In this document: positions 3,377 to 62,258 of the stretch, in pieces | Layout of the letters: each line of letters opens with the position of its first letter | How positions within the stretch are numbered: the first letter of the stretch is position 1 | Assembly (NCBI GenBank): GCA_026122225.1 | Contig: JANEZZ010000739.1 | Span: 1,736,001 to 1,800,000, forward strand | DNA length: 64,000 nt | Source: Heloderma charlesbogerti | Taxonomy: Eukaryota > Chordata > Lepidosauria > Squamata > Helodermatidae | Direction: 5' to 3' | The notes under the pieces: model-generated | Database searches by the model: none | What the model was told of the DNA's origin: nothing | The model's input: only the letters and a program-made list of their open reading frames with translations | Program-made: the position numbers and the translations under genes

Positions 3377-4359
3377 TAGGGATGTACGAATCCCTTACCT
3401 GGTTCCAGTCCGGGGCTTTGGCAGTGGCAGGGAGATGATCTCTCCCTCCCTCTGGAATCCTCCCCAGACGGCTCCACTCCACGGCAAGGCTGCGGAACAG
3501 CTGGCCGAGGCTGGCCACAGCTGGACTTCTGGACACTGCTGGGCTGCTGTGGCCACAAATGGCGTCCATTGTAGCAGCCGCCATTTGCGTCCTTGCATTA
3601 AGCCATGATAGGCTATTTAAGTATTTACATAGCCTATCATGGCAAAAGGCAGGGACAGAAATGGCAGCCGCTACGCCATTTGCATCCCTGCCTTTTGCCG
3701 TGATAGGCTACGTAAATACTTATGTAGCCAATTACAGCAAAGAGCAGGGGCACAAATGGCGTAGCAGCTGCACCCACAGGGCGTCCGCTACGACGGCCAC
3801 CATTTGTGGCCGCAGCAGCCCGGCAGCAGCTGGAAGACGACCCGGACCTGCCACCGCTGCATCCACTGCCACATCCACCGCCGCTGCATCCGCCGCCAGG
3901 TAGGTCCATTCCGGGGGGGATTGCTAGGGGTGTACAAAACCCCACTTACCTGTCTCCGGTGGGGGGAGGTGATCCGTTACTCCCCCCTGGAATTAGGGAT
4001 GTACGAAACGACTCACCTGTCGCTACGACGGCCACCATTTCCACCTGCAGCAGCCTGGCAATGGCCAGAGCCACCGCCGCTTCATCTGCTGCTGCCAGAG
4101 CCGCTGCCGCATATGCCACCAGGTAGGTCCGCGGGGGGGATTCTGCGGGGTGGGGGGAGGCCATTCTGCCACGGACTCCGGGGGGCCTGATTCTAAAGAA
4201 TCCAGCCTCATTGGAGTCCGTGGCAGAATTCTCTGACATTCCTCGGGATTGTGGGGGGTGGCGATGGGAGGAGGCTGTTCTGCCACAGTTTCTGGGGGGC
4301 CGGATAATAAAAAATCCAGCCTCACTGGAGTCCGTGGCGGAATTCTCCAACATCCCTTA
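3377..4359. mobile_element. Palindromic hAT-like non-autonomous element (copy 1)
   Basis: The element starts TAGGGATGTACGAA and ends AACATCCCTTA. It is flanked by the perfect 8-mer gtcacacc (3369-3376 and 4360-4367). The paralogous site near 52990 carries the uninterrupted sequence, giving an empty site. Inside are the family hairpin modules (GATAGGCTACGTAAATAC near 3703 and GCCGCCATTTGCGT) and two further TAGGGGTGTAC / TAGGGATGTAC starts at about 3930 and 3984, so it may hold collapsed nested copies. It has no transposase. Open frames here are by-products of GC-rich palindromes. Confidence 0.88.
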
Positions 4360-4436
4360 GTCACACCTATTTAGTCTCCTCCCTCTTGCTGGAGGGAGTG
4401 AATAAGGATGACTCACCTTCTCTACCCATCTCCAAG

Positions 4437-5194
4437 TAGGGATGTCAGAGAATTCCGCCATGGATCTTGGTGAGGCTGAATGCCAGTGCATTCGGCCCCC
4501 TGAAATCTGTGGCGGAACGAAGCCCCTTGCCCCCCCGCGCGAAATGGGCCCAGAACAGAGCATCTACCTGCTGCCATCTGCACTGCATTGCGAATGCATT
4601 CACTTTTTCCATATAGCTGTGATAGGCTATGTAAGTATTTACCGGATTTGCGTCCCTGCGGAAGCCATGATAGGCTACGTAAGCACTTACGTAGCCTATC
4701 ATGGCAAAACTAAGGGAATGCAAATGGCGGCGGCTACGGTGGCCGCCATTTGCGTTCCCTTTTTTTTGCAGTGTGATAGGCTACGTAAATATTTATGTAG
4801 TCTATTACAACAAAAGAGAGGGACGCAAATGGCGCAGTGGTCGCCATTTGCGTTCCCTTTTTTTTTTCCGTAATAGGCTACGTAAATCTTTACATAGTCT
4901 ATGACGGCAAAAAAAAGAAAGGAATGCAAATGGCAGCCACTGTAGCCGCCATTTGTGTTTGCTGTGTTTTGGGTTTTTTTGGCCGTGATAGGCTACGTAA
5001 ATATTTACATAGCCTATCACGGCAAAATACAGGGACGCAAATGGCAGCGGGTGGTGGGCAGCCCCACCAGTGGCTCCGCGGAGTTTCCACAGAGCAAAGC
5101 TGGCCAGAGAGAGTTTCAGGTGGAGGGACGGAGCGCCTCCCCACTACCGCGAATGTCACCCTTCGAAAAGTTAAGTGACTTTCGTACATCCCTA
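4437..5194. mobile_element. Palindromic hAT-like non-autonomous element (copy 2)
   Basis: It runs from TAGGGATGTCAGAGAATTCC to GACTTTCGTACATCCCTA. Flanks tctccaag (4429-4436) and tgtccaag (5195-5202) match at 7 of 8 positions, and the paralog near 53070 reads tccccaag once, without an element. It contains five successive hairpins of the GATAGGCTACGTAAATATTT type alternating with GCCATTTGCG palindromes and T-runs. It has an ATTCCGCC-type left end and an ACTTTCG-type right end. No coding capacity is seen. Confidence 0.88.
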
Positions 5195-5752
5195 TGTCCA
5201 AGCTCTTCCAGGGCATTTTTCCTTAAATTCTGCAACAGAAGATGTGTCTTGAAACTTTGCCACTGACTATTAAGGAATATTGGTAGTCCTTCCAGCTCTT
5301 GTCCCGGGCATCTAGCTTTCTATATGGAGTAATTTCTGTCTTTTTTGATATAGAGAATATTGAATTACGTGACTGATATGGAGGCAGACACCAAGCTATC
5401 CTGATCCAAGGTATGCATCCGTATTTGATCACCAGATTCTGTATCAGTAGCTACTTATATATGTCATTCTTCTTCCCTATACCCATGAACCACATTTCCA
5501 ACTAAAACAAACCATAAATCCAACATGTTTTGTGTCAAAAAGCACAACCAAGCATAAGTAGTCCTGAATGTAAAAGAGAGGTTTACATTCTTGTATAAGA
5601 AGGGCTCTAGCTGTAGCCTGATATTCAAGGGTCGGTGACATCTTCCTACTCCTTCCAGACCAAAGGCCATGTCAATTTTCATTACATGGGTTTTGCTGGA
5701 TATGGTATGGTAAGTAGCATGCTTGACATCTGTGAAGAACTATGACTCCTAC

Positions 5753-5879
5753 CCTTCTGATTTGAAATCTTCCCTTCTGGACACAGGGCACAATCATAAC
5801 AGCAAAATGGCTCCCCTTCCTTCTTTTTCCTGATGTAACCAGGATTGCAATTGTCATTACACACAGAAATGGGCAGCAC
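5753..5879 (-). pseudogene. V2R copy B, exon 5 (cysteine-rich region exon)
   Basis: This 127-bp exon encodes the start of the family-C cysteine-rich domain, which links the extracellular Venus-flytrap domain to the seven-helix domain. It reads LPISVCNDNCNPGYIRKKK, then FCCYDCALCPEGKIS, with all expected cysteines. The acceptor AAG|GTGCTG (5881-5880 is AG) and the donor AAGG|GTAGGA are intact, and the final G is in the right phase for exon 6. The exon itself is open, but exons 2, 3, 4 and 6 are absent, so the unit cannot encode a receptor. Confidence 0.92.
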
Positions 5880-9458: not shown

Positions 9459-9850
9459 TAGGGGTGTACGGATTCCCCACTGTCTGTTCCAGTTGGGAAT
9501 CTGTGTGTGTGGGGGAGGCGATCCATTCCACCCCCCTAGAATCTTCCAGAGCGGTTCTGCTCCGCTCGGATTCCGGGGTGGACGACTGGCTTGGGGGCGC
9601 TTACTTTCCCTCCTGCCAGCCAGAGCCATTCTCCTCCTCCCTGTCCCTGCCAATTGCCATGTCTTTAAAAAAGAAGAAGAAGGCGATTGGGAGGATGTGC
9701 CCATAGACTTATACGCAAATAGAGTCATGAATCTTGTGTATAAGTCTATGTGTCCACAGGCTTATATGCAAGATTCATGGCTCTATTTTGCATATATGTC
9801 TATGGGCACATCCCGCTGATTGCATGGGCCCATAGACTTATACGCAAAAC
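9459..9850. mobile_element. Palindromic hAT-like element, diverged or truncated (copy 3)
   Basis: It begins TAGGGGTGTACGGATTCCCC with the GGGGGAGGCGATCC module typical of the family, then changes to a variant hairpin (CCATAGACTTATACGCAAA and its inverted repeat near 9790). No CATCCCTA right end is visible and no 8-bp duplication can be assigned. It is a divergent subfamily member or an incomplete one. Confidence 0.55.
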
Positions 9851-10009: not shown

Positions 10010-10345
10010 TAGGGGCGGGCGGATCACTCACCATCTGTCCCACGACGGTGTCCACGGGAGGGGGGGATGTGATCCGTTCCTCCCCCGCGGAATCCTCCGG
10101 GGCTGCTCTGCATCTGGGGGATTTCGCGGAGATGCACTCCTGCTCTGTGGCACTGGCAATATGGTAATGGCATCTGCCATTACCGTATTCATTGGGTTAA
10201 TACAGCCGCAAATGGCATAGTGGACGCCACTTGCGGCTGTAAAGCACTGGTTTTTATGTAAATAGAGCTGTAAATGCCTGCAAGTAGGATAAACTCAGGG
10301 CTTTATGGCTTCAAGTGGCGTCCAATACACCATTTGTTTCTATGT
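10010..10345. mobile_element. Palindromic hAT-like element, partial (copy 4)
   Basis: It starts TAGGGGCGGGCGGATCACTC with the GTGATCCGTTCCTCCCCC module. Inverted modules follow (GGTAATGGCATCTGCCATTACC, and CAGCCGCAAATGGC against GCCACTTGCGGCTG). There is no typical right end. The Ac-like GATAGGCTACG hairpins are missing, so it belongs to a different subfamily from most copies. Confidence 0.5.
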
Positions 10346-10529: not shown

Positions 10530-12048
10530 CTGAAGAGTGAGTTTGAAAGGGCCTTAAGAAGCATTGCTAATAACAAGGCAGCAGGAGATGACGGTATCCC
10601 AGCTGAACTGTTTAAAATCTTGCAAGATGATGCTGTCAAGGTGATGCATGCCATATGCCAGCAAATTTGGAAAACACAAGAATGGCCAACAGATTGGAAA
10701 AAATCAACTTATATCCCCATACCAAAAAAGGGAAGCACAAAAGAATGTTCAAACTATCGAACAGTGGCACTTATTTCACATGCCAGTAAGGTAATGCTCA
10801 AGATCTTGCAAGGTAGACTCCAGCAATTCATGGAACGAGAATTGCCAGATGTACAAACTGGGTGTAGAAAAGGTAGAGGAACTAGAGACCAAATTGCCAA
10901 TATCCACTGGATAATGGAGAAAGCCAGGGAGTTTCAGAAAAACATCTATTTCTGTTTTATTGACTATTCTAAAGCCTTGGACTGTGTGGATCATCACAAA
11001 TTGTGGCAAGTACTTGGTGGTATGGGGATACCAAGTCATCTTGTCTGCCTCCTGAGGAATCTGTATAATGACCAAGTAGCAATGGTAAGAACACACCATG
11101 CAACAACGGACTGGTTTAAGATTGGGAAAGGAGTACGGCAGGGTTGTATACTCTCACCCTACCTATTCAACCTGTATGCAGAACACATCATGCGACATGC
11201 TGGGCTTGATGAAGCCAAGGCTGGAGTTAAAATTGCTGGAAGGAACATTAACAATCTCAGATATGCAGATGATACCACTTGGATGGCTGAAAGCGAGGAG
11301 GAGCTGAGGAACCTCATGATGAAGCTGAAAGAAGAAAGTGCAAAAGCTGGGTTGCTGTTAAACCTCAAAAAAACCATGATTATGGCAACCAGCTTGATTG
11401 AGAACTGGCAAATAGAGGGAGAAAACATGGAGGCAGTGACAGACTTTGTCTTTCTAGGTGCAAAGATTACTGCAGATGCTGACTGCAACCAGGAAATCAG
11501 AAGACTGTTACTTCTTGGGAGGACAGCAATGACAAGTCTTGATAAAATAGTTAAGAGCAGAGACATCACACTGACAACAAAGGTCTGCATAGTTAAAGCA
11601 ATTGTATTCCCCGTAGTAACCTATGGCTGTGAGAGCTGGACCATAAGGAAGGCTGAGCGAAGGAAAATAGATGCTTTTGAACTGTGGTGCTGGAGGAAAA
11701 TCCTGAGAGTGCCTTGGACTGCAAGAAGATCAAACCAGTCCATACTCCAGGAAATAAAGCCAGACTGCTCACTTGAGGGAATGATATTCAAGGCAAAACT
11801 GAAGTACTTTGGCCACATCATGAGAAGACAGGATACCCTGGAGAAGATGCTGATGCTAGGGAAAGTGGAAGGCCAAAGGAAGAGGGGCCAACCAAGGGCA
11901 AGATGAATGGATGATATTCTGGAGATGATGGACTCTAAATTGGGGGAGCTGGGGGTGGCGACAACCGACAGGAAGCTCTGGCGTGGGCTGGTCCATGAAG
12001 TCACGAAGAGTCAGAAGCGACTGACCAAATAAACAACAACATCATAAT
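10530..12048 (+). mobile_element. RTE-BovB LINE, 5'-truncated, long open RT frame
   Basis: The BovB reverse transcriptase begins near ALRSIANNKAAGDDGIPAEL and stays open from 10620 to 11906 (428 codons). Motifs in order: IPKKGSTKECSNYRTVAL, FIDYSKALDCVDHHKLW, GVRQGCILSPYLFNLY, the catalytic YADD within LRYADDTTWMAE, and KYFGHIMRRQD near the C-terminus. A TGA replaces the W codon after QPRAR; the frame then continues to VTKSQKRLTK and a short (AAC)n-like tail. The apurinic endonuclease is missing through 5' truncation. Sequence differs clearly from the 47-kb and 57-kb copies, so it is another subfamily. Confidence 0.93.
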
Positions 12049-12424
12049 AAAATGACTATTTATGTGTGTGTATACATATAAATATATTTCTAGATATGAC
12101 ATTACTTAAAATATACAAATGGTTTGCTTTTATTTTTTTATCTTTTTAAAAAACTTTCCCCATTATTATTATTATTATTATTATTATTAATAGCCTTATG
12201 GGATTATTATTATTACTATTTCTTGTTGGCTAAACCTGTAATGTTTATTAATATGCATTAACTGAATGGTAATATATGGCCAATGGAAATGGATTGTTTG
12301 CTCCCATACCTTTGCTATAAGACTGAGGTTATGATATTGAAAGCTAAGGTTTACCATTTGTGGTGTAGCAGATTGAAGATTTAATAATACTTGCAATGTT
12401 TGGAAGAATGCTGCATAGCTTTTA
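12049..12424. other. AT-rich unassigned stretch
   Basis: AT-rich sequence with an (ATT)n tract at 12162-12189. Together with 13201-13447 it may be one older LINE 3' end (possibly L1) split by the Ngaro unit at 12425-13199; I cannot prove this from motifs. Confidence 0.35.
12162..12189. repeat. (ATT)n microsatellite
   Basis: About nine ATT units. Confidence 0.9.
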
Positions 12425-13199
12425 GTGAGCGGAGATGGGTCAAAGAAGAGTCAAACAAGAAGGCTTGGGTTGAATAATTGGGCCACATTTATTGAAAACA
12501 TCTGCAAAGGGGTACCTAGGGCAGGCAGCTCACTGTGCCAGCAACTAGCTGGCACTTCTTGGGCGAAAACACATGCAGCCTGAGGGGTGGCATCGATCTC
12601 GCCATCCCTCCGGACTGCCCCTTGTGCGGGAGGTAGACCTTCCCCTGTTACCCCCTCCTGGTGCTGCACAACACCTGGGTGAGAGAGTAGGGTTGGTCTC
12701 CCAGGCAACCCTCATCCCCCTGCCGAGCCGCACAACCCGTTTGGGGGGCCTCAGGCGTCACCTGTCACCATAAGGTGCCTCTTCATGCACACCATCCATA
12801 ATCTCATTCTGCTTTTGCCCGTCCTAGCCACCAACTGAAATGTGACCTATGAGAGACCGCATTCACCTACAGGATGCACCCCAGCCCAATGGTAGTGTGA
12901 AGTAGGCAAAAAGACTCACATTAGAAGGCCAATTGAACTGTGAGCCAAAAATTCCTACATGGCTCCCAAAGGGGCAACCGGTAATAAACTCACACTGCTT
13001 AAGGGAGGGTGAGAGGGAGCCGTGAGAGCGAGAGAGCTTCTGTTAGGAGGGGCGCAGAGCTTAAGAGGCCTCTGCCGGCCCCTCCCATGCCTGGTAGTGC
13101 CACTGGGGGATACCCAATGGTACAGAGCCACCCCTTCTCTCCCAACCCGCCCGCAATGCCCCCCCTCCTGCCAGACAAGCTGGCGCCGGGGTTAGGGCA
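12425..13199 (-). mobile_element. Ngaro/DIRS-like terminal unit (solo copy 1)
   Basis: It matches, in inverse orientation, the 3' end of the Ngaro-like element ending at 22010 (GACCCATCTCC end, AATAAA-type signal, AAGAAGTGCCAGCTAG, CGGACTGCCCCTTGTG). It matches over its whole length the unit at 54351-55122, with the same two ends (GGAGATGGG and GGCGCCGGGG..AGGGCA). No internal coding region is present, so it resembles a solo terminal repeat or an internally deleted copy. No clear target duplication is seen, as expected for tyrosine-recombinase retroelements. Confidence 0.75.
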
Positions 13200-13200
13200 T

Positions 13201-14992: not shown

Positions 14993-15483
14993 TAGGGATG
15001 TACGAAACTCACTTACCTTTGCTCCGTTCCTCCTCGCAGAATCCTCGATGGGGGGGGAGGCGATCCGGTCCTCCCCCCCGGAATCCTCGATGGCTGGCTC
15101 CACTCCACGGCCAGGCTGCGGAGGAGCCGACCAGGGCCATCCACAGCCAGATCTCCAGCTACAGACGGCCTGGTGCGGACACCATAGCAGCCACCATTTG
15201 CATCCAACTAGACAGCCATGACAGGCTACGTAAGAATTTACATAGGCTATCACAGCTGAGGTAAAAAAACAAACAAAAATGCAGCATACGCAAATGTCGG
15301 CGGCTACGGTGGCTGCCATTTGCGTGGCCTATTTTTCGCCAACTTATCTTATGTAAATATTTACATAAGATAAAACGGCGAAAAAAAGGGGAAAGCAAAT
15401 AGCGTAGTGGACGCTATTTGCATTCCTTTATTTTTCGCCGTTCTGGCCTACGTAAATATTTAGAACGGCTAGAACAGCAAAAA

Positions 15484-15884
15484 ATGCTCACCAGGGGGGT
15501 GGTCCTCTTGCCGGCGCTTGCCACGCCCCCGGGGGGCAATGGCGCTCTGGTTCGCTGGGAGGCGTGGCCCCGCGCTGGGTCTGGCCGTGGCTCCAGGGGT
15601 GCCGGTGCCCGCTGCTGTGGTACGCGTGCCCCTTGCCTCCTACTCACTGGGGGTGCGGCCCTCTCGCCGGTGCTTACCGCGCCTCCAGGGGCGCCGACGC
15701 TTGTGGCTGCGGTGTGCCCGCCCCTCACCTCTGGCTCGTTGGCAGTCGCGGCCTTCTTGCTGTGCTGCCGGGTGCGCCGGCCCTCCCTTGGCAGTGCGCG
15801 CGCCCCTCGCCTCGCTGCCCACTGGCTGCCACGGTGCATGGTCCTGCTCCTTTCAGCAGCTGTTCTTGCTGCTGTAGGGGCATC
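15484..15884. other. GC-rich stretch, probable 5' part of the Ngaro-like element
   Basis: Very GC-rich sequence with long open frames on both strands of low-complexity Ala/Pro/Arg composition. I attribute it to the 5' region of the Ngaro-like insertion only by position between the two halves of the split palindromic element. Confidence 0.4.
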
Positions 15885-16514: not shown

Positions 16515-17488
16515 TAGGGGTGGACGAAAGTCACTTACCTGTCCTCGAAGGCCGTTCGCGGTGGGGGGGAGCGCTTCGCTGCTCCCCCCGCGAAGTTCAG
16601 GCTTGGGGGGGAGGCTTCCCGCCTCGCCCGGCCGAAATTCAGGCCGGGGGAGAGGCTTCCCGCCTCGCCCGGCCGAAATTCAGGCCGGGGAGGAGGCTTG
16701 CCGCCTCGCCCGGCTGCGAACGCGAAAGTAAAAACAAAAAAACAAAAACTCCCCCTGATAGGCTACGTGACGATTCACGTAGCCTATCACGGCTAGATCT
16801 GCAAAGTCAGCCGTGATAGGCTACGTGAATCGTCACGTAGCCTATCACGGGTGACTTTAAAAAAAAAAAAAAAGCGCGTACGCGAATGGCGGCCCCCATA
16901 GGGAGCTGCCATTCGCGTTCCTTATTTAGTGGCTGTAGTCTACGTAAATGTTTACGTAGACTACGGCGAAAATAAGGGCAATGCAAATAGCGTTGCCCTT
17001 ATTTTCGCCGTAGTCTACGTAAACATTTACGTAGACTACAGCCACCAAATAAGGAACGGGAATGGCGGCTCCCTATGGGGGCCGCCATTATCCGTACACT
17101 CTTTTTTTTTTTTTTTTTAAAGTCACCCGTGATAGGCTACATGACGATTCACGTAGCCTATCACGGCTGACTTTGCAAATCTAGCCGTGATAGGCTACGT
17201 GAATCGTCACGTAGCCTATCAGGGGGCATTTTTTTTTCTTTCATTACAATGGCGGCGGCGGCAGCCGGTCGAGAGACCGGCTGCCACTCCCGCCTCGCTC
17301 GAACACCCGCCGAACCGCCGGCCGGACCAGCCACCGGGAGGGACATTCGCAAAAGGTAAGTCCCGTCCCGGGGGGGGGGTGGGGGGGCGGGGGGTGCGAA
17401 GGATTTCTCTCTGAAACTTGTTCGGGGGGCCGAACGCGTTGGCACTCGGCCCCCCGAAGTTTCGGGGAGAAATTCTCCGCCATCCCTA
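16515..17488. mobile_element. Palindromic hAT-like element, complete 974-bp copy (copy 7)
   Basis: Flanks gctgctag (16507-16514) and gctgccag (17489-17496) match at 7 of 8. The left end TAGGGGTGGACGAAAGTCAC is followed by ACTTACC. The right end is a GTTTCGGGGAGAAATTCTCC / GGCCCCCCGAA hairpin preceded by AAAGGTAAGTCCC. Between lies a near-perfect palindrome of about 490 bp (about 16745-17230, centre about 16985), itself made of 36-40-bp palindromes (GATAGGCTACGTGACGATTC, GTAGTCTACGTAAATGTTTA). A 30-bp motif (CGCCTCGCCCGGCCGAAATT) is tandemly repeated near 16600-16710. It has the same length as the copy at 28193-29166. Confidence 0.9.
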
Positions 17489-30354: not shown

Positions 30355-30540
30355 GACTAAGACGGCCAAAAATAAGGAACGCAAATGGTGGCGGCCGTAG
30401 CCGCCGCCATTTGTGTACGCGGTTGTTTTTTTTTTTAACCCAGCCATGATAGGCTATGTAAATCTTTATGTAGCCTATCACATCTTGCAACCCCCCCCCC
30501 GACAAGACTGCAAATGGTGGCGGTGGCAGCCGGTCGGACA
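30355..30540. mobile_element. Fragment of a palindromic hAT-like element (copy 12)
   Basis: ACTAAGACGGCCAAAAATAA, GGCGGCCGTAGCCGCCGCCA and GATAGGCTATGTAAATCTTT are internal modules of the family. Neither terminal motif is present, so both ends are lost. Confidence 0.75.
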
Positions 30541-38274: not shown

Positions 38275-39158
38275 GAGTAAGGCCGTGCACCGCTTCGGCC
38301 CAAAGCCCGAGCTGTGCACCACTTCGGCCCATCTCTAAGGCAAGGAATTGTTAGAATGGCAACTTCCTGTATTTCCTGCGTTTCCCCATTCCCCAGAACA
38401 ACAAGATGGCTGCTAGTGTGTCCCCAGAGGGCCTAGGAGCTGCAGCAGCAGTGGCTTCCCTGGCAGCACCAGCAGCAGCTCGCCTTCATTGCGAGCTGCC
38501 AGCACTGGCCTCACTCAAGCCTGCATGGGCTCCTCGCAAAAAAGGAACCCATAAAGGCTTCTTCTGAGGCAGGAGCCATCCTCCACCCAAGCACCCTGCC
38601 CTCCTTGCCAGGAAGGGAGAGAGCACCAATGGTGGGTGACTCCCGCCCTCATGCCTGTCAAATCTGCAAGGTCTGCTTCAGTGCAAGAACGGAGGCCGTG
38701 CAGGCTTGACAGGCAGTGCCTCCCACCAGTCACCACTTGCAAAGAGGGCAGGCAGTTGGCGGGCTGTGCCAGGCAGTGCCCGCAGCAGCAGCTCCCTCAG
38801 CGGCGCCTCCCAGGGTGGTGGTAGTGGCATCCCCCCACATGGAACAAGGGTCCAGGTGAGGAGCTGGGGGTTGGCGGCGTGCTGGGGAGGGTGACGCGGG
38901 ATTTGGATGACTGAATATTTGCGTAGCCTATCGCGTGAAGAAAAATGTGATAGGCTGCATTTAGGCTAATCCACCAGCTTTACGGCTCCAAATGGTGCCC
39001 AATACGCCATTTGCGACTAGATACTTAACATAGCGATACGGCATGGCAATGGCAGGGGAGCCAGAGGTGAGTGCTCCATTCTGCCACGGGCCCCAATGTG
39101 GCCAGATTCCAAGAATCTGGCCTCATTGGGGTCCGTGGCGGAATTCTCAGACATCCCA
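38275..39158. mobile_element. Diverged palindromic hAT-like element (copy 13)
   Basis: The right end GGTCCGTGGCGGAATTCTCAGACATCCC matches the inverse of the family's TAGGGATGTCAGAGAATTCC end but lacks the final TA. Internal AATATTTGCGTAGCCTATCGCG and GTGATAGGCTGCATTTAGGC are decayed hairpin modules. The left boundary is uncertain (GCCGTGCACCGCTTCGGCCC near 38282 may or may not belong). Confidence 0.5.
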
Positions 39159-40289
39159 ACAAATTACCAAACATACCATAGCCAGAAAGGTTGCAGACCT
39201 CTTGATGAGATGCTGTAGCAGTCAATGAATTTAGTTCTAAAACCTGCCTATGAAAGAAATGCTCTATGTTATCTCATTACTGCCACTATATACTATAGAA
39301 CAACATGTGGGTTATCCACCCATGTTTCTTTTTCAGATATTTGAGAGCTATGGGACTCTTTGCCACAGTTTCTAATGAAGTTCCTAATTAGACCTCACCA
39401 TTAGAAATGCTTCCCCCAGCTATAAAATCTTTCATTTCTGCCATCAAAATAAACCCTTTATACTGAAACAAAACACAGTAACCTGGTTCCCATGGTGTAG
39501 GCATGGGATTGACACCATCACTAGAACCAGTCTTTCAAAAGGAAAAAAAATTAAGATGTGTATTAAGGGGAATGCTTTATAAAATAATGGGCTAAGATTG
39601 CTTGAAGTTTCTTAAATAAAATATGCTTGGTTACCATTCCTAATAGCTCAGAGAGTGTCTAGATGGAGGTATTGGGGGAAGTGCAGGCATGAAGACTCCT
39701 TTCTGGATCCTTCACATGTGGGGGTGATGGGGAATTGCCAGAGTCAAAGGGTCCCAAATTCTGCCTGCCTTAGGTCTTTCTCCAGCTCTGAGTCTTGGAT
39801 TCGATTGACTGCTAAACATTCAGTTTCTCTCTCTCTTCCCCGCCAACTCAATGGGATGCAGCTGAAACAGCCTCAGCCTCTCCCTCTCTCTTCCCTATCC
39901 TTCCAAATAGATAAGAGACTCTTCCCTAGCTAGATTTCCCTTCAGTCCAGATTTCCTTGAACTCCACCCCAACCAATTCCTCACACACAGGAACAGATGC
40001 TGTACAGCAGTCATCCTCTGTCTCCAGCTCTTCCTACTTCTGTTTGGTAGGATAGTTCAGATGTTTTAGGAAGTACTTGCTGAAGTTCCTAAAATATAGA
40101 ATGTATAACTCAGTTTGCTCATAAAACTATAGTGTTTGGTATATTAAATTTAAAAGTATACTTTATTCAGACAATAATTACAAATTTACTGCATTTACTT
40201 TTAAATGTTTTTTTTATTTAATGATAATTATATGAGAAAACCAAGTTATACGTAATGTATTTTATGTTCCTAAATTAGCAAAGTTAATT
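39159..40289. other. V2R copy A intron 2, unassigned
   Basis: AT-rich. The block 39690-39780 (CTTTCTGGATCCTTCACATG, GGGAATTGCCAGAGTCAAAG) recurs in diverged form at about 41017-41100, indicating an unidentified repeat. Confidence 0.45.
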
Positions 40290-48700: not shown

Positions 48701-49315
48701 GTGCGCGTTTATCTTGGAGCCCAAGAAAGTAAAATCTGTCACTACTTCCGTTTCTTCCCCTTCCATATGCCAGGAAGTGATGGGGCCAGATGCCATGATC
48801 TGAGTTTTTTTAATGTTGAGTTTCAAACCAGCTCTTTAGATCCTCTTTGCTTTCTGCCATTAGGGTGGTATCATCTGCGTATCTGAGGTTGTTGATAATT
48901 CTCCCGGCAATCTTAATCCCGACCTGTGATTCATCCAACCCGGCGTTTCTCTTGATGTACTCTGCATATAAATTAAATAAGCAGGGTGACAATATACAGC
49001 CTTGTCGTACTCCTTTCCCAATTTTGAACCACTCGGTTGTTCCATGTCTGGTTCTTACTGTTGCTTCTTGACCCTCATACAAGTTTCTCAGGAGACAGGT
49101 AATGTGGACTGCTACTCCCATCTCTTTAAGAATTTGCCAGAGTTTGTTGTGATCCACACAATCAAAGGCTTTAGTGTAGTCAATGAAGCAGAAATAGTCA
49201 TTTTTCTGGAATTCTCTTGCTTTCTCCATGATCCAGTGAATGTTGGCGATTTGATCTCTAGTTCCTCTGCCTCCTCGAAACCCAGCTTGTACTTCTGGTA
49301 GTTCTTGGTTCACAT

Positions 49316-49894: not shown

Positions 49895-52800
49895 GTTCAC
49901 ATTCTGCTGCAGCCTAGATTGTAGGATTTTGAGCATAACCTTGCTGGCATGTGAAATGAGTGCAATTGTGTGGTAGTTTGAACACTTTTTGTCATTGCCC
50001 TTCTTTGGAATTGGAATGTGAACTGACGTTTTCCAGACTTGTGGCCACTGTTGAGTGTTCCAAATTTGTTGGCATATTGAGTGCAGCACTTTAACAGCAT
50101 CATCTTTTAGGATTTTAAATAGCTCAGCTGGAATACTGTCATCTCTGCTAGCTTCGTTGTTACTAATGCTTCCTAAGGCCCACTTGACTTCACTCTCGAG
50201 GATGTCCGGCTCAAGTTCAGTGACCGCAATATCATGGCTATCAGGGACATTCAGATCTTTCCTGTATAGTTCTTCTGTGTATTATTTCCACCTCTTCTGA
50301 ATCTCATCTGCTTCTGTTAGGTCCCTGCCTTCTTTGACCTTTATCATGCCCGTCTTTGCACAATACATTCCCTTAAGATCTCCGATTTTGTTGAAAAGAT
50401 CTCTATTCTTTCCCATTCTATTGTTTTCCTCGATTTCTTTGCATTGTTCATTTAAGAAGGCCTTCTTGTCTCTCCTTGCTGTTCTCTGGAACTCTACATT
50501 CAGTTGGATATATCTTCCCCTTTCTCCCTTGCTTTTTGCTTCTCTTCTTTCCTCAGCTACTTGTAAAGCCCCATCAGACAGCCACTTTGCTTTCTTGCAT
50601 TTCTTTTTCTTTGGGATGGATTGAGTTGCTGCCTCCTGAACAATGTTACGGACCTCCTTCCATAGTTCCTCAGGCACTCTGTCTATCAGGTCTAATCCCT
50701 TAAACGTATTCCTCATCTCCACTGTATATTCATCAGGGATATGATTTAGGTCATACCTAAATGGTTTAGTGGTTTTCCCTACGTTCTTCAATTTAAGCCG
50801 AAATTTTGCAAGAAGCAACTCATGATCTGAGCCACAGTCAGCTCCAGGTCTTGTTTTTTACTGACTGTATAGAGCTTCTCCATCTTTGGCTGCAAGGGAC
50901 ATAATCAATCTGATTTCGATATTGACCATCTGGTGATGTCCATGTGTAGAGTCGCCTCTTGTGCTGTTGGAAAAGAGTGTTTGCTATGATCAACGTGTTC
51001 TCTTGGCAAAACTCTATTAGCTTTTGTCCTGCTTCATTTTGTACACCAAGGCCATGCCTGCCTGTTATCCCAGTGATTTCTTGACTTCCTACTTTAGCAT
51101 TCCAATCCCCTATGATGAAGAGGACATCTTTGTTTGGTGTTAGTTCTAGAAGGTGTTGTAGGTCTTCATAGAACCAATCAAGCTCAGCTTCTTCAGCCTC
51201 CATGGTTGGGGCATAGACTTGAATTACTGTGATGTTGAACGGTTTGCCTTGGATTCATACTGAGATCATTCTATCGTTTTTGAGATTGTACCCCAGTATT
51301 GCTTTCCCCACCCTTTTGTTGACTATGAGTGCCACTCCATTTCTTCTAAGGGATTCTTGCCCACAGTAGTAGATATGATGGTCACCTGAATTAAATTTGC
51401 CCATGCCTGTCCATTTGAGTTTGCTGATTCCCAAGATGTTGATGTTCAATCTTGCCTTCTCATGTTTGACCACCTCGAGCTTACCTTGATTCATTGACCT
51501 TACATTCCAGGTTCCTAAACAATATTGTTCTTTACAGCATTTTCTTTTCACCACCAGACATATCCACAGCTGAGTGTCCTTTCGGCTTTGGCCCAGCCAC
51601 TTCACTCTTTCTGACACTACTTGGAAATTCCCTCTGCTCTTCCCCAGTAGTATATTGGAAACCTTCTGACCTGATGGGCTCACCTTCCGGCATCATATCT
51701 TTTAGCCTTGTGATACGTTCCATGGGGTTTTCTTGTCAAGAATACTGGAGTGGGTTGCCATTTCCTTCTCCAGCGGACCACATTTTGTCAGAACTCTCCA
51801 CCATGACCTGTCCATCTTGGGTGGCCCTGCACGGCATAGCTTATGGCTTCACTGAGTTACGCAAGCCCCTTCGCCACAACAAGGCAGTGATCCATGAAGG
51901 GATCTATGGGGTTTAGTCCTCACTAAGTACGTGTGTTTAGAACTGCGTCCTTCAGGGCATCCATTTTTGCTCTTGAGTGTTCCCGTCTCAAAACTGCACA
52001 ACACTAGGCTCCCCTCTTCCTTCATTGGCCTCTGGTGACTGGCCTGAGGGCACCTAAACCCTTCTTCCCAGAAGCGAATAGGCTAGATTAAATGTTCCCT
52101 ATCCAGGCTTTGTAAACAGGTGAGAAGGAATGATCCCCTCACTTCAGCTAGACCTCGGAACACCCACTTTTAGCTAAGATTTCTATTGTAATTTCCCACC
52201 AGATAAATATTTTCTCATATTTTGGACTTTGTGTTTTTTTACTTGAATTACATGCTCTGAGCAACCATGGTTAATGCTTGATGTATCATGCTTCATGTAT
52301 CACCAGGGCCTGCCACCTTGAGATCACCATGGGCCATCTCTAGGTCTCAGGTTTGGATCCTGATATCTCAGGGCCTGGGATGTTCCAAACCTGGGAACTC
52401 TACTCATGACATCATTCTACTCTAACAGCTTACTTGGTTCTGGCGATCATAGCAGCAGCATCCTATGGTAAAAACGTAGCTCCCACTTGACTCCAGACTG
52501 TTGGACACAGCAGAAGGCAACCACCCTTTAAAATCATCTGGAACACAATACCCAACATGACCCAAGCAGGAACTCAACTCTCAACAAGGATGGCAGTGGT
52601 GTCTGGAAGCTGAGCTGGGCAGGGAGCAGGGCTGGGGGTGGGGATTCTCATTTCTACCACCCATCCCAATCTGCCAGCTGAGGCAAGAGGCTTGCTGAGC
52701 CTAGTGGTAGGGCTGGTGTTGGGTGCTGTGTCTACCTGGGTTTGATTTCTTTGGGATGGTAGTCACTGGAGGCTTATGGCATTTTTCAGTATTTGAGTTT

Positions 52801-53725
52801 ATTTACAAATAGGCAGGTGGGACATAGGTGGAAGAAAACATTCCAATACCAACCCTGCCTGTCCCACATCAGATCTCCAGAGAGCGAGATGTAATCCTGA
52901 AATATTTTCAGAGGTTACACCTCAATTCACTGTCATTCTCATACGTTCTCCATCTTTTTCTCCCAAGAGTTCTTGTAGTGTTTCTCAGTCACACCTAGCT
53001 TGTCCCCTCCCTCTTGCTGGAGAGAGTGAATAAGGATGAGTCACCTTCTCTAACTATCCCCAAGCCCTTCCAGGGCATTTTTCTTTACAGTCTATAACAG
53101 AACATGTGTCTTTAAACATTGCCACGGACTATTAAGGAACATTGGTAGTCCTTCTGCCTTTATTAACCCTCCCCAGTCCAGGTCCCCACAAACTTTACAT
53201 ATCAGTCTGCCTGTCCATCATTCATCCATCTATAACTGTATATAGTAAAATTTTGACAGACACTATAATTCTTCTCCCTGGCATCTACCTTTCTATATGG
53301 AATAATTTCTGTCTTTTTTGATATAGAGAATATTGGATTACATGTCTGATATGGAGTCAGACACAGCGCTATCCTGATCCAAAGTATGCATCTGTATTTG
53401 ATCACCGTGTTCTTTATCAGTAGCTACTTATATATTTTATTCTTCTTCCCTTTACCTATGAACCACATTTCCAACTAAAACAGACCATAAATCCAACATG
53501 TTTTGTGACAAAAAGCACAACCAAGTATAACTAGGCCTGAATGTAAAAGAGAGGTTTACATTCTTGTATAAGAAGGGCTCTAGCTGTAGCTTGATATTCA
53601 AGGGTGGGTGACATCTTCCTACTCCTTCCAGACCAAAGGTCATGCCAATTTTCATAACATGGGTTTTGCTGGATATGGTATGGTATGTAGCATGCTTGAC
53701 ATCTGTGAAGAACTAAGACTCCTAC

Positions 53726-53852: not shown

Positions 53853-54350
53853 CTTGTCAGAAACATGAGTGGAGAATAGTTAGGACTGAGAAAAAGATGT
53901 TTTGATAGTTGTGGTTTCAGTTGTAGATGTAAAGAAACGTGGTGTTCTAAATGGGGTAGATTTGATTGATTGATTGATAATGCTTTTATACTGCTAGAAA
54001 TTATAGAATCTCTAAGCAGAAGATATAACAGAGTATTAAAATCACTGCAAAATACAGAATTAATAAACAATTATGAGACAAACACAAAAACAAGCAAATA
54101 AAAATAAACAATAAAATGAAGCAGGGTCAAGATTATCTATTGCAAGACAGGGAAGGAATGGGTAAACATTTTTAGGAGACTCAGAGGGTGTGCACCACTA
54201 TTAAGAAGGCCCACTTTTGAGATGAAGAACATAAGAAGAGCCATGCTAGATCAGACCACAGCTCCAGCTAGTCCAGGTTCTGTTCACACAGTGACCAATC
54301 AGCTCCTCATGGGAAACCCACAAGTAGGACCTGAGTGCAACAGCACTTTG

Positions 54351-55122
54351 CGAGTGGAGATGTGTTAAAGAAGATGCAGAAAACAAGCTTGGGTTGAAAA
54401 TTGGGCCACATTTATTAAATACTTGCAAAGGGGTAACTAGGATGGGCATCTAACTGTGTCAGCGGCTAGCTGGCACTTCTTGGGCAAAAACATACCCAGC
54501 CTGAGGGGTGGCGGGGATCTTGCCATCCCTCCGGACTGCCCCTTCTGAGGGAGGTAGACCTTCCGGTGTCACCCCCGACCCGGTGCCACACAACCCCTGG
54601 GTGAGTGAGAAGAGTTGGTTTCCCAGGCAACCCTTATCCCCCCGCCGAGCCGCACAACCCGTTCAGGGGGCCCTCAGGCATCACCTGTCACCATAAGGTG
54701 CCTCTGCATGCACACCATCCCTACTTTCCTGTTTTTGCCCGTCCTAGCCGCCAACTGGAATGTGACAAATGATAAAGACCATATTCCCTTACAGGACACA
54801 CTCGACCCGCAAAACAGTGTGACGTAGGCAAAAAAGATGCACAGTAATAGGCCAATCGAACTGTGAGCCAAAAAATTCCTACATGGTTCCCAAAGGGCAA
54901 CCGGTAATAAACCTACACTGCTTAGGGGAGGGTGGGAGGGAGCTGCGTCGAGCCAGAGAGCTGAGATTGGGAAGGGGGCTGAGTTTAAGGCAACACAGCC
55001 TGCCCCTCCTTGCATGGTGGTGCCACTGGGGTGCACCAATCAGAGGCCCCTACATCTTGTCACCCCACCCACCCGCAATGCCCCCCCTTTCGGCCAGACA
55101 AGCTGGCGCCGGGGTGAGGGCA
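54351..55122 (-). mobile_element. Ngaro/DIRS-like terminal unit (solo copy 2)
   Basis: Similar over its whole length to 12425-13199 and, over the outer 400 bp, to the inverse of 21590-22010. It begins near GCGAGTGGAGATG and ends GGCGCCGGGGTGAGGGCA. It splits the CR1-type element that in copy B is continuous at 6318-6511 (CAGCACTTT before, TTTCCCAACATGTTCCCCAG after), and no extra duplicated target bases beyond about TTT are visible. Confidence 0.8.
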
Positions 55123-55207
55123 TTTCCCAACATGTTCCCCAGCAACTGGGGTACCTAGGCATACTGCCTCTGAAGCTCGAGGTGTTCCAGAAATCTGAGT
55201 CAGAGAG

Positions 55208-56114
55208 TAGGGATGGACGAAAGTCACTTACCTGTCCTCGAAGCTTGTTCGCAGTGGGGGGGAGGCGCTTCGCTGCTCCCCCCGCGAAGTTCAGGCTGGG
55301 GGGGGAGGCTTCCCGCCTCGCCTGGCTGAAATTCAGGCCGGGGGGGAGGCTTCCCGCCTCGCCCGGCCGAAATTCAGGCCAGGGAGGAGGCGCCTCGCCT
55401 CGCCCGGCCGCGAACTAAAAAGTTTTTTTTTTTTTTTAAGAACGCCCCCGTGATAGCCTATGAGACAATTAACGTAGCCTATCACAGATAGATTTCCAAA
55501 GTCAGCCGTGATAGGCTACGTAAATCGTCACGTAGCCTATCACGGGTGACTTAAAAAAAAAAAAAAAAGCGCGTACACTAATGGCGCCCCCCATACGGAG
55601 CCGCCATTCGCATTCCTTATTTGGTCGCTGTAGTCTACGTAAATCTTTACGTAGATTACAGCAACCAAATAAGGAACGGGAATGGCGGCTCCCTATGGGG
55701 GCCGCCATTATCTGTACGCGCTTTTTTTTTTTTTTTAAAGTCACCCGTGATAGGCTACGTGACGATTTACGTAGCCTATCTTAGCTGACTTTGCAAATCT
55801 AGCCATGATAGGCTATGTTAATCGTCACGTAGCCTATCACGGGGGCGTTTTTGTTTTTTTTTCTTTTCTTGGAATGGCAGCGGTGGCAGCCGGTCGAAAG
55901 ACCGGCTGCTGCTCCCGCCCCGCACGAACACCCGCCGAACCGCCGGCCGGACCCGCTGCCGGGAGGGACATTCGGCAAAGGTAAGTCCCGTCCCGGGGGG
56001 GTGTGCGGGGTGCGGGGGGGTGCAGAGAATTTCTCCCCGGAACTTGTTCGGGGGGCCAAACACGTTGGCGCTCGGCCCCCCGAAGTTTCGGGGAGAAATT
56101 CTCCGCCATCACTA
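55208..56114. mobile_element. Palindromic hAT-like non-autonomous element (copy 16)
   Basis: Left end TAGGGATGGACGAAAGTCAC with ACTTACC; right end GGGGAGAAATTCTCCGCCATCACTA with AAAGGTAAGTCCC. It is close to the 974-bp copies but its centre is shortened (a single GTAGTCTACGTAAATCTTTA hairpin). Flanking octamers (tcagagag, cagtcagg) differ; the CR1 sequence on the right continues at a different point from that on the left, so a deletion accompanied or followed insertion. Confidence 0.88.
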
Positions 56115-56640: not shown

Positions 56641-56645
56641 ACCTG

Positions 56646-57568: not shown

Positions 57569-60500
57569 AGAAGAAGAAGAAGAAATGTAGAAAAAGAAGA
57601 AGAAATTGGAGAAGGAAATGGCAACCCACTCCAGTATTCTTGACAAGACAACCCCATGGAACGTATCACAAGGTTAAAAGAGATGATGCTGGAAGATGAG
57701 CCCCTCAGGTCGGAAGGTGTCCAATATACTACTGGGGAAGAGCAGAGGGTATTTCCAAGTAGCGCCAGAAAGAGTGAAGCGGCTGGGCCAAACCCGAAAG
57801 GACACTCAGCTGTGGATGTGTCTGGTGGTGAAAAGAAAATCCGATGCTGTAAAGAACAATATTGTTTAGGAACCTGGAATGTCAGATCAATGAATCAAGG
57901 TAAGCTGGAGGTGGTCAAACATGAGATGGCAAGACTGAACATCGACATCTTGGGAATCAGCGAACTCAAATGGACAGGCATGGGCGAATTTAATTCAGGT
58001 GACCATCATATCTACTACTGTGGGCAAGAATCCCTTAGAAGAAATGGAGTGGCACTCATAGTCAACAAAAGGGTGGGAAAAGCAGTACTGGGGTACAATC
58101 TCAAAAACGATAGAATGATCTCAGTATGAATCCAAAGCAAACCATTCAACATCACAGTAATTCAAGTCTATGCCCCAACCACTGATGCCGAAGAAGCTGA
58201 GGTTGATCGGTTCTATGAAGACCTACAACACCTTATAGAACTAACACCAAAAAATATGTCCTCTTCATCATAGGGGATTGGAATGCTAAAGTAGGAAGTC
58301 TTGAAATCACTGGGATAACAGGCAGGCATGGCCTTGGTGTACAAAATGAAGCAGGACAAAAGCTAATAGAGTTTTGCCAAGAGAACACGCTGATCATAGC
58401 AAACACTCTTTTCCAACAGCACAAGAGGCCACTCTACACATGGACATCACCAGATGGTCAATATTGAAATCAGATTGATTATGTCCTTTGCAGCCAAAGA
58501 TGGAGAAGCTCTATACAGTCAGTCAAAACAAGGCCTGGACCTGACCGTGGCTCAGATCATGAGCTGCTTCTTGCAAAATTTCAGCTTAAATTGAAAAACG
58601 TAGGGAAAACCACTAAACCACTCAAGTATGACCTAAATCATATCCCTGATGAATATACAGTGGAGGTGAGGAATAGATTCAAGGGATTAGACCTGATAGA
58701 CAGAGTGCCTGAGGAACTATGGATGGAGGTCCGTAACATTGTTCAGGAGGCAGCAACGAAATCCATCCCAAAGAAAAAGAAATGCAAGAAACCCACGTGG
58801 CTGTCTGATGAAGCTTTACAAGTAGCTGACGAAAGAAGGGAAGCAAAAAGCAAGGGAGAAAGGGGAAGATATAGCCAACTGAATGCAGAGTTCCAGAGAA
58901 TAGCAAGAAGAAACAAGAAGGCCTTCTTAAATGAACAATGCAAAGAAATCATAGGGACCTAACAGAAGCAGATGAGATTAAGAAGAGGTGGCAAGAATAC
59001 ACAGAAGAACTATACAGGAAAGATCTGAATGTCCCTGATAGCCATGATAGTGCGGTCACTGAACTTGAGCCGGACATCCTCAAGAGTGGAGTCAAGTGGA
59101 ACTTAGGAAGCATTAGTAACAACAAAGCTAGCGGAGATGACAGTCTTCCAGCAGAGCTATTAAAAATCCTAAAAGATGATGCTGTTAAAGTGCTGTACTC
59201 AATATGCCAACAAATTTGGAACACTCAGCAGTGGCCACAAGACTGGAAAAGGTCAGTTCACATTCCAATTCCAAAGAAGGGCAATGCCAAAGAGTGTTCA
59301 AACTACTGCACAATTGCGCTTATTTCACATGCCAGCAAGGTGTTGCTCAAAATCCTACCAGCTAGGCTTCAGCAGTATGTGAACTGAGAACTACCGGAAG
59401 TACAAGCTGGGTTTCCAAGAGGCAGAGGAACTAGAGATCAAATCGCCAATATTCGCTGGATTATGGAGAAAGCAAGTGCTAATTTCAGAAAAACGTCTAT
59501 TTCTGCTTCATTGACTAGGCTAAAGCCTTTGATTGTGTGGATCACAACAAACTCTGGCAAATTCTTAAAGAGATTGGAGCAGCAGACCACCTTACCTGTC
59601 TCCTGAGAAACTTGTACGAGGGTCAAGAAGCAACAGTAGGAACCAGACATGGAACAACCGATTGGTTCAAAATTGGGAAAGGAGTACGACAAGGCTGCAT
59701 ATTGTTGCCCTGCTTATTTAACTTATATGCAGAGTACATCATGAGAAACGCTGGGTTGGATGAATCACAGGTCGGGATTAAGATTCCCGGGAGAAATATC
59801 AACAACCTCCGATATGCAGACGATACCACCCTAATGGCAGAAAGCGAAGAGGATCTAAAGAGCCTCTTGTTGAGGGTTAAAGAGGAGAGTGCAAAAGCTG
59901 GTTTGAAACTCAGCATTAAAAAAATGAAGATCATGGCATCTGGCCCCATCACTTCCTGGCATATAGAAGGGGAAGTAATGGAAGCTGTGACAGATTTTAT
60001 TTTCTTGTGCTCCAAGATCACCGCAGACGGTGACTGTAGCCATGAAATCAAAAGACGCTTGCTCCTTGGGAGGAAAGCTATGGCAAACCTAGACAGCATA
60101 GTAAGAAGCAGAGACATCACCTTGCCGACAAAGGTCCCTCTAATCAAAGCTATGGTTTTCCCAGTAGTAATGTATGGCTGTGAGAGCTGGACTATAAGGA
60201 AGGCTGAGCGCTGAAGAATTGATGCTTTCGAACTGTGGTGCTGGAGAAGACTCTTACGACTCCCCTGGACTGCAAGGAGGTCAAATCAGTCCATCCTAAA
60301 GGAACTGAACCCTGAGTGCTCATTGGAAGGACAGATACTGAAGCTGAAGCTCAAATATTTTGGCCACCTAATGCGAAGAGAAAACTCTCTGGAAAAGACG
60401 CTGATGCTGGGAAAGACTGAAGGCAAAATGAGAAGGGGACGGCAGAGGATGAGCTGGCTAGATAGCATCACCAATGCAATGAATATGAACTTGAGCACGC

Positions 60501-60591
60501 TCCGGGAGAGAGGGCAGGACAGGAAGGCCTGGCGTGCTATGGTCCATGGGGTCACAAAAGTCAGACACGACTGAACGACTGAACAACAGCA
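57569..60591 (+). mobile_element. RTE-BovB LINE, 3.0 kb, degenerate
   Basis: Perfect 12-bp duplication acaggtgtctgt at 57557-57568 and 60592-60603. Endonuclease: YCLGTWNVRSMNQGKLEVVK (about 57850-58129), GDWNAKVG near 58275. RT: IPIPKKGNAKECSNYCTIAL, DHNKLWQILKEIGAADHLTC, GVRQGCILLPCLFNLY, YADDTTLMAE, KYFGHLMRRENSLEKTLMLG. The end reads AWRAMVHGVTKVRHD. Relative to the 47-kb copy it has an internal deletion of about 0.13 kb near 58950, TGA codons at 58127-58129 and after QQYVN (about 59385), and frameshifts. Not autonomous. Confidence 0.95.
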
Positions 60592-60603
60592 ACAGGTGTC
60601 TGT

Positions 60604-61469
60604 GCTGAGAAAGTTCTGATCGTTTTCCTTCTGAACAAGCACTGTTAGTCTCTGCTGGGAACATTGCAGATGAATGCTAATTCACTCTTGCTGCTGTCAT
60701 GCTGCCTCACTGCTAACATGTATGGCATAAAACCCATCTTACCCCTTGGCTCTGGGTTCAGATAAACTGTCTGATCCAACCACTGGGTATGTCTGTGTGC
60801 TGTAAGTACTCAATAAAGTCTCCTTCTAAGTGAACCTGGATCCTGCTTATCACTTCCGCAGCACCTCCAAACCTTAGCAGCCCACGGACGGGGCATACAG
60901 GCTCTCGGCTAAGTCCTGAGCTGAGTATTCTGGGCAGGTCTGCCCTTTCAGTGCATGTGGGGAGTGTGATGCCCAGGCAGCAGCCGCCCAGATCACTGCC
61001 ACCTATGCAGCATCTAGTTTCACCTGGAGGAGATCAGAGACCTCCTTGCTTGATCTGTAACCTGATCTGTTGGCATTTGGGCTGCACCTCCCCCAGGTGT
61101 GAATCCTGACTGGCTCCCCTTCCATCGCTCACCCACACACCCTAAGGCAAGACCAGCTCAGTTTGGCACCTGTCTGTCCAACCTATTATGATGTGTGCAT
61201 AATTACATATATGCATGCACGCTGTATACATGCCAACTGAACAAACATAAGCAGAATCTTTTGACATGGTACTCTGGGTGTAGATGAAAAGCAAAAACTA
61301 AGGGAGAACGAAACCAACAGACAAGGTCCTTGAAAGCAATTACCTGTATAATAAAAAACTAAAGTGAATTCGAATCATACACCAGGGGAAATGGAATCAA
61401 ACATTCCAAAGACATTAAAATTCTGATAGTTAGAAGAGGACAAGCATTTAATCATCAGTCATATAGCTG
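60604..61469 (-). other. 5' flank of V2R copy C, distal part
   Basis: Aligns with 44030-44500 of copy A (GATGCCCAGGCAGCAGCCGC, CAGAATCTTTTGACATGGTA). No exon. Confidence 0.65.
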
Positions 61470-62258
61470 TAGGGATGTACGAAAGTCACTTACCTTTCCG
61501 CAGATTATGTTGATGGTGGGGGGGGAGGCGTTCCGTCCCTCCCCCCAGAATCCTCGACGGGGGGGGAGGTGATCCATTCCTCCCCCCCGGAATCCTCCAC
61601 AGCCAGCTGTGCTCCGTGGCAGCTCCGTGGAGCAGCCAGCCAGGCCCAGCCAGGCCCAGCCAGGCCAGAGCCTTCCGCAGCCGGATTTCAGGCTGCGGAG
61701 GACTCTGGGGGAAAAAAACAAAAACTCGCGTACGCAAATGGCGGCGGCTACGGCTGCCGCCATTTGTGTTCCTTATTTTTGATCGCCTTAATCTACGTAA
61801 ATATTTACATAGACTATGACGGTGAAAATAAAGGGGAATGCAAATAGCGTAGCGGGCGCCCGCTACGCTATTTGTGTTCCCCTTTATTTTTGCCGTCATA
61901 GTCTACGTAAATATTCACGTAGATTAAGGCGGTCAAAAATAAGGAACACAAATGGCGGCGGACATAGCCGCCGCCATTTGCATACGCGTTTTTTTTTTTA
62001 AACCCAGCCATGATAGTTTTAAAGAAGACCAGCCTCCGCTGCCATTAAGACCAGCCACCGCTGGAGCCGCTGAAGCTGCCGCCGGAGCCACTGCGGCCCG
62101 GAAGATCCGCCCCAGGTAAGTCACATCCTGGGGGGATCCATGGGGGGGATCCGTGGGGGGGCGGGAGGGGCAGGCCGTTCTGCCACGGAGTTCGGGGGGC
62201 CGAATGCACTGGCATTTGGCCTCTCTGTGATCCGTGGCAGAATTCTCTGACATCCCTA
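61470..62258. mobile_element. Palindromic hAT-like non-autonomous element (copy 17)
   Basis: Left end TAGGGATGTACGAAAGTCAC with ACTTACCTTTCCG; right end GCAGAATTCTCTGACATCCCTA with CCAGGTAAGTCAC. Copy A near 45040 (ATATACCTAGATACATC) is the empty site. The TSD is about atagctag (left atagctg, right gtagctag). The core has paired TTAATCTACGTAAATATTTA hairpins about a GCGGGCGCCCGC centre at about 61857. CCAGGCCCAG is tandemly repeated near 61640. Confidence 0.9.

Follow-up and report, generated by a model that had tools for sequence, protein, structure and literature searches.

Short palindromic elements, probably non-autonomous hAT transposons, in a Heloderma charlesbogerti contig

A 64,000-nucleotide stretch of the Heloderma charlesbogerti genome (assembly GCA_026122225.1, contig JANEZZ010000739.1, positions 1,736,001 to 1,800,000 of the forward strand; hereafter the window) carries a family of short palindromic elements. 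These are probably non-autonomous hAT DNA transposons, mobilised in trans, whose apparently non-coding cargo is a palindrome of two modules, X and Y, that was presumably renewed when subfamilies were founded. The two unlike ends, A and B, would represent a left-end-like and a right-end-like terminus, and a hAT transposase acting in trans would move the elements by cut and paste. The cargo is apparently non-coding, an array of X and Y dyads whose mirror order in young copies turns the array into one large palindrome. Such a palindrome could be renewed from one of its halves by fold-back template switching or by arm-to-arm conversion, and this would take place in the active founder copies of new subfamilies, not as an ongoing process in copies at rest. 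An earlier note on this DNA had described about 17 copies of palindromic transposons with shared ends, and what it observed is largely real.

Ends and insertion sites of the elements

A scan for the two end types found 13 two-ended elements of the TAGGG...CCCTA type, in all of which both ends could be paired. An A end on the left and a B end on the right were found in the plus-strand elements E3377 (3377..4359; an old copy), E16515 (16515..17488; the best young copy), E27589 (27589..29442; split by E28193), E55208 (55208..56114) and E61470 (61470..62258), and the order is B left, A right in the minus-strand elements E4437 (4437..5194), E13448 (13448..14209) and E22239 (22239..22859; one core arm lost). 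E28193 (28193..29166, minus strand) is nested in an X palindrome of E27589, and E49316 (49316..49894, minus strand) is short, with one X pair. E47735 (47735..48700, minus strand) has a mixed, B-like left end and an A right end, and E25569 (25569..26410, no strand assigned) has an A end on each side. The span of E14993 (14993..22153, plus strand) is 7161 bp because an insert of about 6.5 kb, which itself contains E16515, interrupts the element; its own parts, similar to other members, lie at about 14993-15489 and 22021-22153. Eleven elements are free of nested inserts and measure 579-983 bp, and the other two are lengthened by nesting.

The 13 two-ended elements account for 13 of the 17 left coordinates given in the earlier note; the other four mark decayed or end-less remnants. 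Those at 9459..9546 and 10010..10338 (both plus strand) are decayed A-type ends, TAGGGGTGTACGG and TAGGGGCGGG, with degenerate left termini (TAGGGGTG, TAGGGGCG) and no right end found; the former has a subterminal GGGGGAGG repeat and the latter is followed by two Y-type rows. At 30355..30531 (no strand assigned) lies an internal fragment of Y and X modules without ends, lacking TAGGG. The sequence at 38275 does not begin with TAGGG either; a decayed copy is found instead at about 38901..39159 (plus strand), comprising X, Y and, on the right, a B-type end that terminates in CATCCCAA. Solo A-type ends were also seen at 3925 and 3994 inside E3377, which suggests composite or nested fragments.

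The A end reads TAGGGATGTACGAAAGTCACTTACCT and the B end begins TAGGGATGGCGGAGAATTTCTCC. They share TAGGGATG, about 8 bp, and then diverge; with so little in common they are no simple pair of terminal inverted repeats (TIRs). One A and one B end are combined in 11 of the 13 elements, the others being E25569 with two A ends and E47735, whose A end is combined with a left end of mixed A/B-like type. The window contains 11 exact copies of TAGGGATG and eight of CATCCCTA. The shared ends reported earlier are exact on both sides (TAGGGATG/CATCCCTA) in five of the 13 elements, and the others are off by one or a few bases. Half of the 18 A-type ends (9/18) carry the dyad AAGTCACTT (AAGT-C-ACTT) at positions 14-22, and nine of the window's 16 matches to AAGT-N0-2-ACTT lie inside A ends (whole-window shuffles: mean 3.7, maximum 12). 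Of the 18 A-type ends, 13 carry exact ACTTACCT, the inward-reading complement of AGGTAAGT; nine of 12 B ends carry AGGTAAGT itself in exact form, the B end of E14993 being left out of this count.

The word AGGTAAGT, a 5' splice-site word, is thus directed outward at both ends of most copies. Judged from the copies, it may be a 5' splice site or part of the AAGT subterminal sites. The A end may also resemble Tol2's own end sequence. E16515 has a tandem array of three 41-bp units (GGGGGGGAGGCTTCCCGCCTCGCCCGGCCGAAATTCAGGCC; the second and third 98% and 71% alike to the first) next to its A end, at 16605-16727.

Insertion left its trace in target-site duplications (TSDs). The 8-bp flanks match at seven or eight positions in seven of the 13 elements, compared with none of 156 cross-pairings between elements. 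The duplication is perfect in E3377 (GTCACACC), E14993 (GTTTTCAC), E27589 (GATTCCAG), E28193 (TACGTAGC) and E49316 (GTTCACAT), and has seven of eight positions in E4437 (TCTCCAAG/TGTCCAAG) and E16515 (GCTGCTAG/GCTGCCAG). In E14993, split by its insert, the perfect duplication is the outer one. Given that the window contains paralogous blocks, the joined flanks of an element could be compared with uninterrupted DNA. Those of E3377, E4437, E47735 and E49316 aligned, gap-free at the site, to empty sites at 52844-53064, 52984-53154, 60171-59893 and 59528-59229, respectively. E47735 is therefore an eighth supported insertion: its flanks (GTCTGCGG/GTGCGCGT) agree at only five of eight positions, but the site is empty, with no gap, in a related repeat copy. 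Nesting was seen as well, E28193 and its host E27589 both having perfect duplications. Joining the flanks of E28193 restores the X palindrome of the host, and the joined sequence shows no gap at that point when aligned to intact X palindromes of other copies, for example at 55680-55984.

Short matches out of register were seen at two further elements. The flanks of E22239 share CTAGAGC (7 bp) and those of E55208 share AGTCAG (6 bp), each three bases out of register and ending four bases before the element. Among the 156 cross-pairings, a 6-bp match occurred three times and a 7-bp match never. These matches are perhaps footprints or the result of shifted ends, and the 6-bp one is perhaps due to chance.

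The palindromic core and its arms

Long near-perfect palindromes are expected to be lost quickly from vertebrate DNA. The cores of the present elements are made up of two palindromic modules. X is a dyad of about 36-44 bp with the consensus GCCGTGATAGGCTACGTAAATATTTACGTAGCCTATCACGGC and the core TACGTAAATATTTACGTA; Y is the dyad GCAAATGGCGGC...GCCGCCATTTGC. Fifty-five X-type dyads were found at a threshold of at least 20 of 32 matches, the lowest few of which are borderline by score because the best scores in three shuffles were 19, 20 and 19. The X pattern gave 27 strand-matches, compared with 0.00 expected. Y-type rows number 37, a few of them overlapping.

The arrangement is seen best in E16515, whose palindromic core of 506 bp (16736..17241, no strand assigned) has the order X X Y X Yc X Y X X. 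The order is a mirror order, sequence variants are placed in mirror fashion, and the arms align over 138 bp (96%) and 100 bp (96%). Core arms were measured in 12 of the 13 elements, E14993 being left out. They reach 249 bp (94.4%) in E16515, 250 bp (92.4%) in E28193, 234 bp (92.3%) in E27589 with the nested copy removed and 203 bp (90.1%) in E55208, followed by E61470 (148 bp, 89.9%), E47735 (174 bp, 85.6%), E4437 (166 bp, 83.7%), E25569 (174 bp, 82.8%) and E3377 (114 bp, 80.7%). Only short folds were found in E13448, E22239 and E49316 (73, 50 and 49, respectively). The description of the whole core as one palindrome is thus accurate for the young copies, with arms of 203-250 bp at 90.1-94.4%, and too strong for the others, in which the palindrome is shorter or weaker or, in three, reduced to short folds.

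The core of E16515 folds into one hairpin at -285.5 kcal/mol, compared with -62.3 ± 4.6 kcal/mol for 100 shuffles (z -48), and the fold of the whole of E28193 has a z of -50 (20 shuffles). The observed/expected ratio of CpG is 1.10-1.16 in E16515, E28193 and E55208, 0.58 in E3377 and 0.42 in the window as a whole. The G+C content (GC) of the elements is 0.50-0.59. The between-element alignment comprised six of 12 elements.

Given that X is a dyad, its two arms can be compared base by base. Across 51 X units, 73 cells had changed on both sides and still paired, compared with 34.3 ± 4.7 after shuffling (0/500 as high). Compensated cells numbered 47, compared with a mean of 20.8 when the right arms were permuted (maximum 38 in 1000). 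Ragged hits at 4621, 15442, 28166 and 38901 were excluded from the permutation test, which left 51 of the 55. An earlier pair count on 39 units gave the same result (55 cells, 25.1 ± 4.2 in shuffles, 0/500); the 12 units left out of it by hand were mostly near-duplicates, plus the less symmetric 27799, 55452 and 55807. The signal differs between columns. Column 6 may be G, T or C but keeps its pairing across the arms (17 compensated, 5 one-arm changes), columns 2 and 13 give a mixed picture (10 and 9; 8 and 6), and column 1 lacks symmetry (5 compensated cells, 4 changed on one arm, 11 different). Several columns are invariant or nearly so. The CpG columns 10-11 have 26 one-arm changes and 4 compensated ones; they decay mostly on one arm, and resting copies therefore look unrepaired from arm to arm. 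Some older X changes are symmetric on both arms.

The history of the arms was then read from the core halves. With CpG transitions excluded, the nearest half was the half's own mirror partner for 9 of 18. A tree of 19 of the 21 halves, the two short halves of E55208 being dropped, pairs the own halves of E25569 (support 87/85), E61470 (87/78) and E47735 (89/65). A tree of 14 halves from seven elements, without E25569 (two A ends), E55208 and three single-half elements, pairs those of E47735 (96/90) and E3377 (91/96). Forcing the seven A-side halves of these elements into one clade costs 70 log-likelihood units and is rejected by the approximately unbiased (AU) test (p 0.00015). Furthermore, variants peculiar to E27589, E47735, E61470 and E25569 are present in both arms of each. 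The half-core trees reject a single ancient fold-over followed by independent evolution of the arms. The short rows available suggest that the palindrome was renewed around subfamily births. In Y-chromosome palindromes, too, the two arms resemble each other more closely than old duplicates should; the present elements differ in being mobile and short, with renewal seemingly at subfamily birth and not by continuous conversion.

Relationship to hAT transposons and foldback elements

In the excerpts of PMC3517528, hAT elements are characterised by 8-bp TSDs, short TIRs of 5-27 bp and a length under 4 kb. The elements described here have 8-bp TSDs, short terminal repeats, lengths under 4 kb and an AAGT-type quasi-palindrome at the A end. 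The excerpts of PMC10368747 give the Hermes TSD as nTnnnnAn and describe a quasi-palindrome with subterminal AAG(T/C) sites next to its TIR; in Tol2, AAGTACTT follows directly after the TIR. This quasi-palindrome is described for Hermes and Tol2 (PMC10368747, excerpts) and is no superfamily-wide rule. At the usable target sites, eight only, T was found at position 2 in four and A at position 7 in five (9/16 positions, p 0.011), which is suggestive of the Ac-type target bias nTnnnnAn. Hermes and Tol2 resemble the present family in their 8-bp duplications with what may be a shared nTnnnnAn tendency, their unlike ends and an AAGT quasi-palindrome inside one end; they differ in that the excerpts of PMC10368747 mention no palindrome array for them and in that the present elements lack a transposase gene. 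Mar of Drosophila (PMC3517528, excerpts) is likewise a short non-coding hAT element with short TIRs and 8-bp TSDs, but it is AT-rich and uses the Buster target nnnTAnnn, whereas the elements here have a GC of 0.50-0.59 and a palindromic core, and TA is found at positions 4-5 in none of the eight sites. The hAT-type affinity proposed in the earlier note is supported by the duplications and the hAT-type ends, and a transposase in trans is presumed.

Several observations weigh against a hAT origin with renewed palindromes. An in-register 8-bp duplication is absent from five of the 13 elements, namely E13448 and E22239 (3/8 each), E25569 (4/8), and E55208 and E61470 (1/8 each); the 8-bp duplications claimed for the family therefore hold for seven elements, plus the one supported by its empty site. 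E25569 carries two A ends, and the target consensus rests on eight sites. Among 15 different open reading frames (ORFs) of the window scanned with Pfam, no hAT domain was found, and neither a transposase nor an autonomous relative was seen in the window with this choice of ORFs. With respect to the arms, the number of X pair types (32) did not exceed that in shuffles (31.9; 291/500), and part of the covariation signal is therefore shared ancestry. Nine of the 18 core halves have a nearest half that is not their own partner. The 19-half tree groups E16515 with E28193 by side, the A-side and B-side arms standing apart, and in the 14-half tree the halves of E61470 and E27589 lie in open forks and those of E4437 apart on a weak branch. 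Support for the paired halves is moderate and shifts with the set of rows, the tree rows have only about 120 columns, and the group for the AU test was chosen after the first tree was known.

The mirror order might also be passive, the core being a tandem array of palindromic units whose arm similarity stems from array amplification, with no renewal of arms. E25569, with its core Y X Y X Y X Y X Y, indeed does no more than alternate Y and X, any array of palindromes is bound to be mirror-symmetric, and the trees pair the halves with only moderate support. However, the inner X units of E16515 are of the GTAGTC type and the outer ones of the GATAGGC type, the spacers mirror as well, and four elements have their peculiar variants in both arms, which makes this explanation rather unlikely. 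Selection could instead keep the dyads if X and Y were protein-binding sites, forming a regulatory or transposase-docking array or possibly, given the outward AGGTAAGT at both ends, a two-way promoter. Y contains a ATGGCGGC core, presumably that of YY1. Invariant and nearly invariant X columns beside the freely varying but paired column 6, the frequent ACTTACCT and AGGTAAGT words in the ends, and a CpG ratio of up to 1.16 in young copies compared with 0.42 in the window are all consistent with selection. The same words could, however, be hAT subterminal sites (AAGT), and a column that is paired but free in its base looks structural or copied rather than sequence-specific; we consider it unlikely that selection explains the dyads. 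A bolder form of the renewal scenario combines both ideas: the family would live by palindrome renewal, founders being rebuilt from one half so that pairing is kept and the letters drift, and the X and Y array would have a function, either to dock the transposase or to drive transcription in both directions, with splice donors facing outward. This too strikes us as improbable.

The architecture is foldback-like, and the foldback elements, including TU of the sea urchin, offer another comparison. The excerpts of PMC4079207, in which a sea urchin foldback is mentioned alongside Tetris, and of PMC4168063, on Galileo, describe elements that are modular, strongly foldable, non-coding and variable in structure, with 7-10-bp TSDs. 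Their long inverted repeats form the ends, whereas the fold here is internal and made of two dyad modules between short unlike termini. The present elements are non-coding, modular and strongly self-folding (z -48 and -50, as above), with no long inverted repeats at their termini, which differ after the first 8 bp or so. Foldback-type elements from other superfamilies, namely Mutator or, as for Galileo, P, would likewise give 7-10-bp duplications and a long palindromic structure, Galileo having 7- or 8-bp TSDs according to the excerpts of PMC4168063. The seven clear duplications here are nevertheless all 8 bp, the TAGGG ends, the AAGTCACTT dyad and the nTnnnnAn tendency look like hAT, the palindrome is internal with short and unlike terminal repeats instead of the long ones of foldbacks, and the target sites are unlike the GTATTAC of Galileo; such an origin is distinctly unlikely. 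Finally, palindromic chimeras are a known fault of long reads, and an assembly or chimeric-read artefact could fake palindromes. Faced with 13 separate copies, eight of them with their own TSD or empty site, and with lineage-specific changes, this explanation is exceedingly improbable.

No description of these sequences or of the core was recognised in a full-text literature search, which covered the papers in part and had Dfam/Repbase and squamate genomes beyond its reach; a library entry for the elements may exist. At least one of six sequence words occurred in each of two papers, neither of which dealt with transposons to judge by its title. Two X patterns and a 25-mer of the A end had no match in a viral contig collection, and Rfam gave no match at gathering scores in the window. 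Contig-collection matches to a 16-mer of the A end (two) and to an X pattern (three, in genome contigs) had neither TAGGGATG ends nor Y motifs on the stretches read and were judged to be chance. The occurrence of TAGGGATGTGTA inside a primer of a skink paper (PMC7526180, excerpt) is too short to mean anything, and for the turtle hAT-6_XT the outline and abstract of PMC11008031 offered no sequence to compare.

Neighbouring features and meaning

V2R-type vomeronasal receptor exons with 7tm_3 and ANF_receptor domains (Pfam) lie on the minus strand at 24006-24899, 33584-34636 and 41942-42397. The closest protein match of the first (7tm_3), among the best 120 of 3873 hits, is from Elgaria multicarinata webbii (83%), which supports a squamate host. 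If the exons form one gene, its introns would contain E25569, E27589 and E28193. In the 15 chosen ORFs, Pfam found no domains other than those of V2R-type receptors and reverse transcriptase.

The repeat of about 6.5 kb that splits E14993 (15490-22020) has a tail in common with 12422-13200 and 54340-55123, three in the window, and no Pfam match among its ORFs scanned; a DIRS-like identity, considered at first, was dropped on that ground. Two related repeat copies in opposite orientation, 47162-51772 and 57607-60594, look like long interspersed nuclear elements because they resemble the ORF at 10530-11906, which encodes a reverse transcriptase. The former holds E47735 and E49316, and the latter has both sites empty. 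At 26598-27111, about 520 bp of DNA form another large inverted repeat with 84% self-complementarity; as far as seen, it stands outside the palindromic-transposon family.

A family that carries nested palindromes, whose arms seem to change in concert, through several subfamilies provides a natural series on how palindromes are made, kept and moved, and the end requirements of hAT elements can be read from its copies alone.

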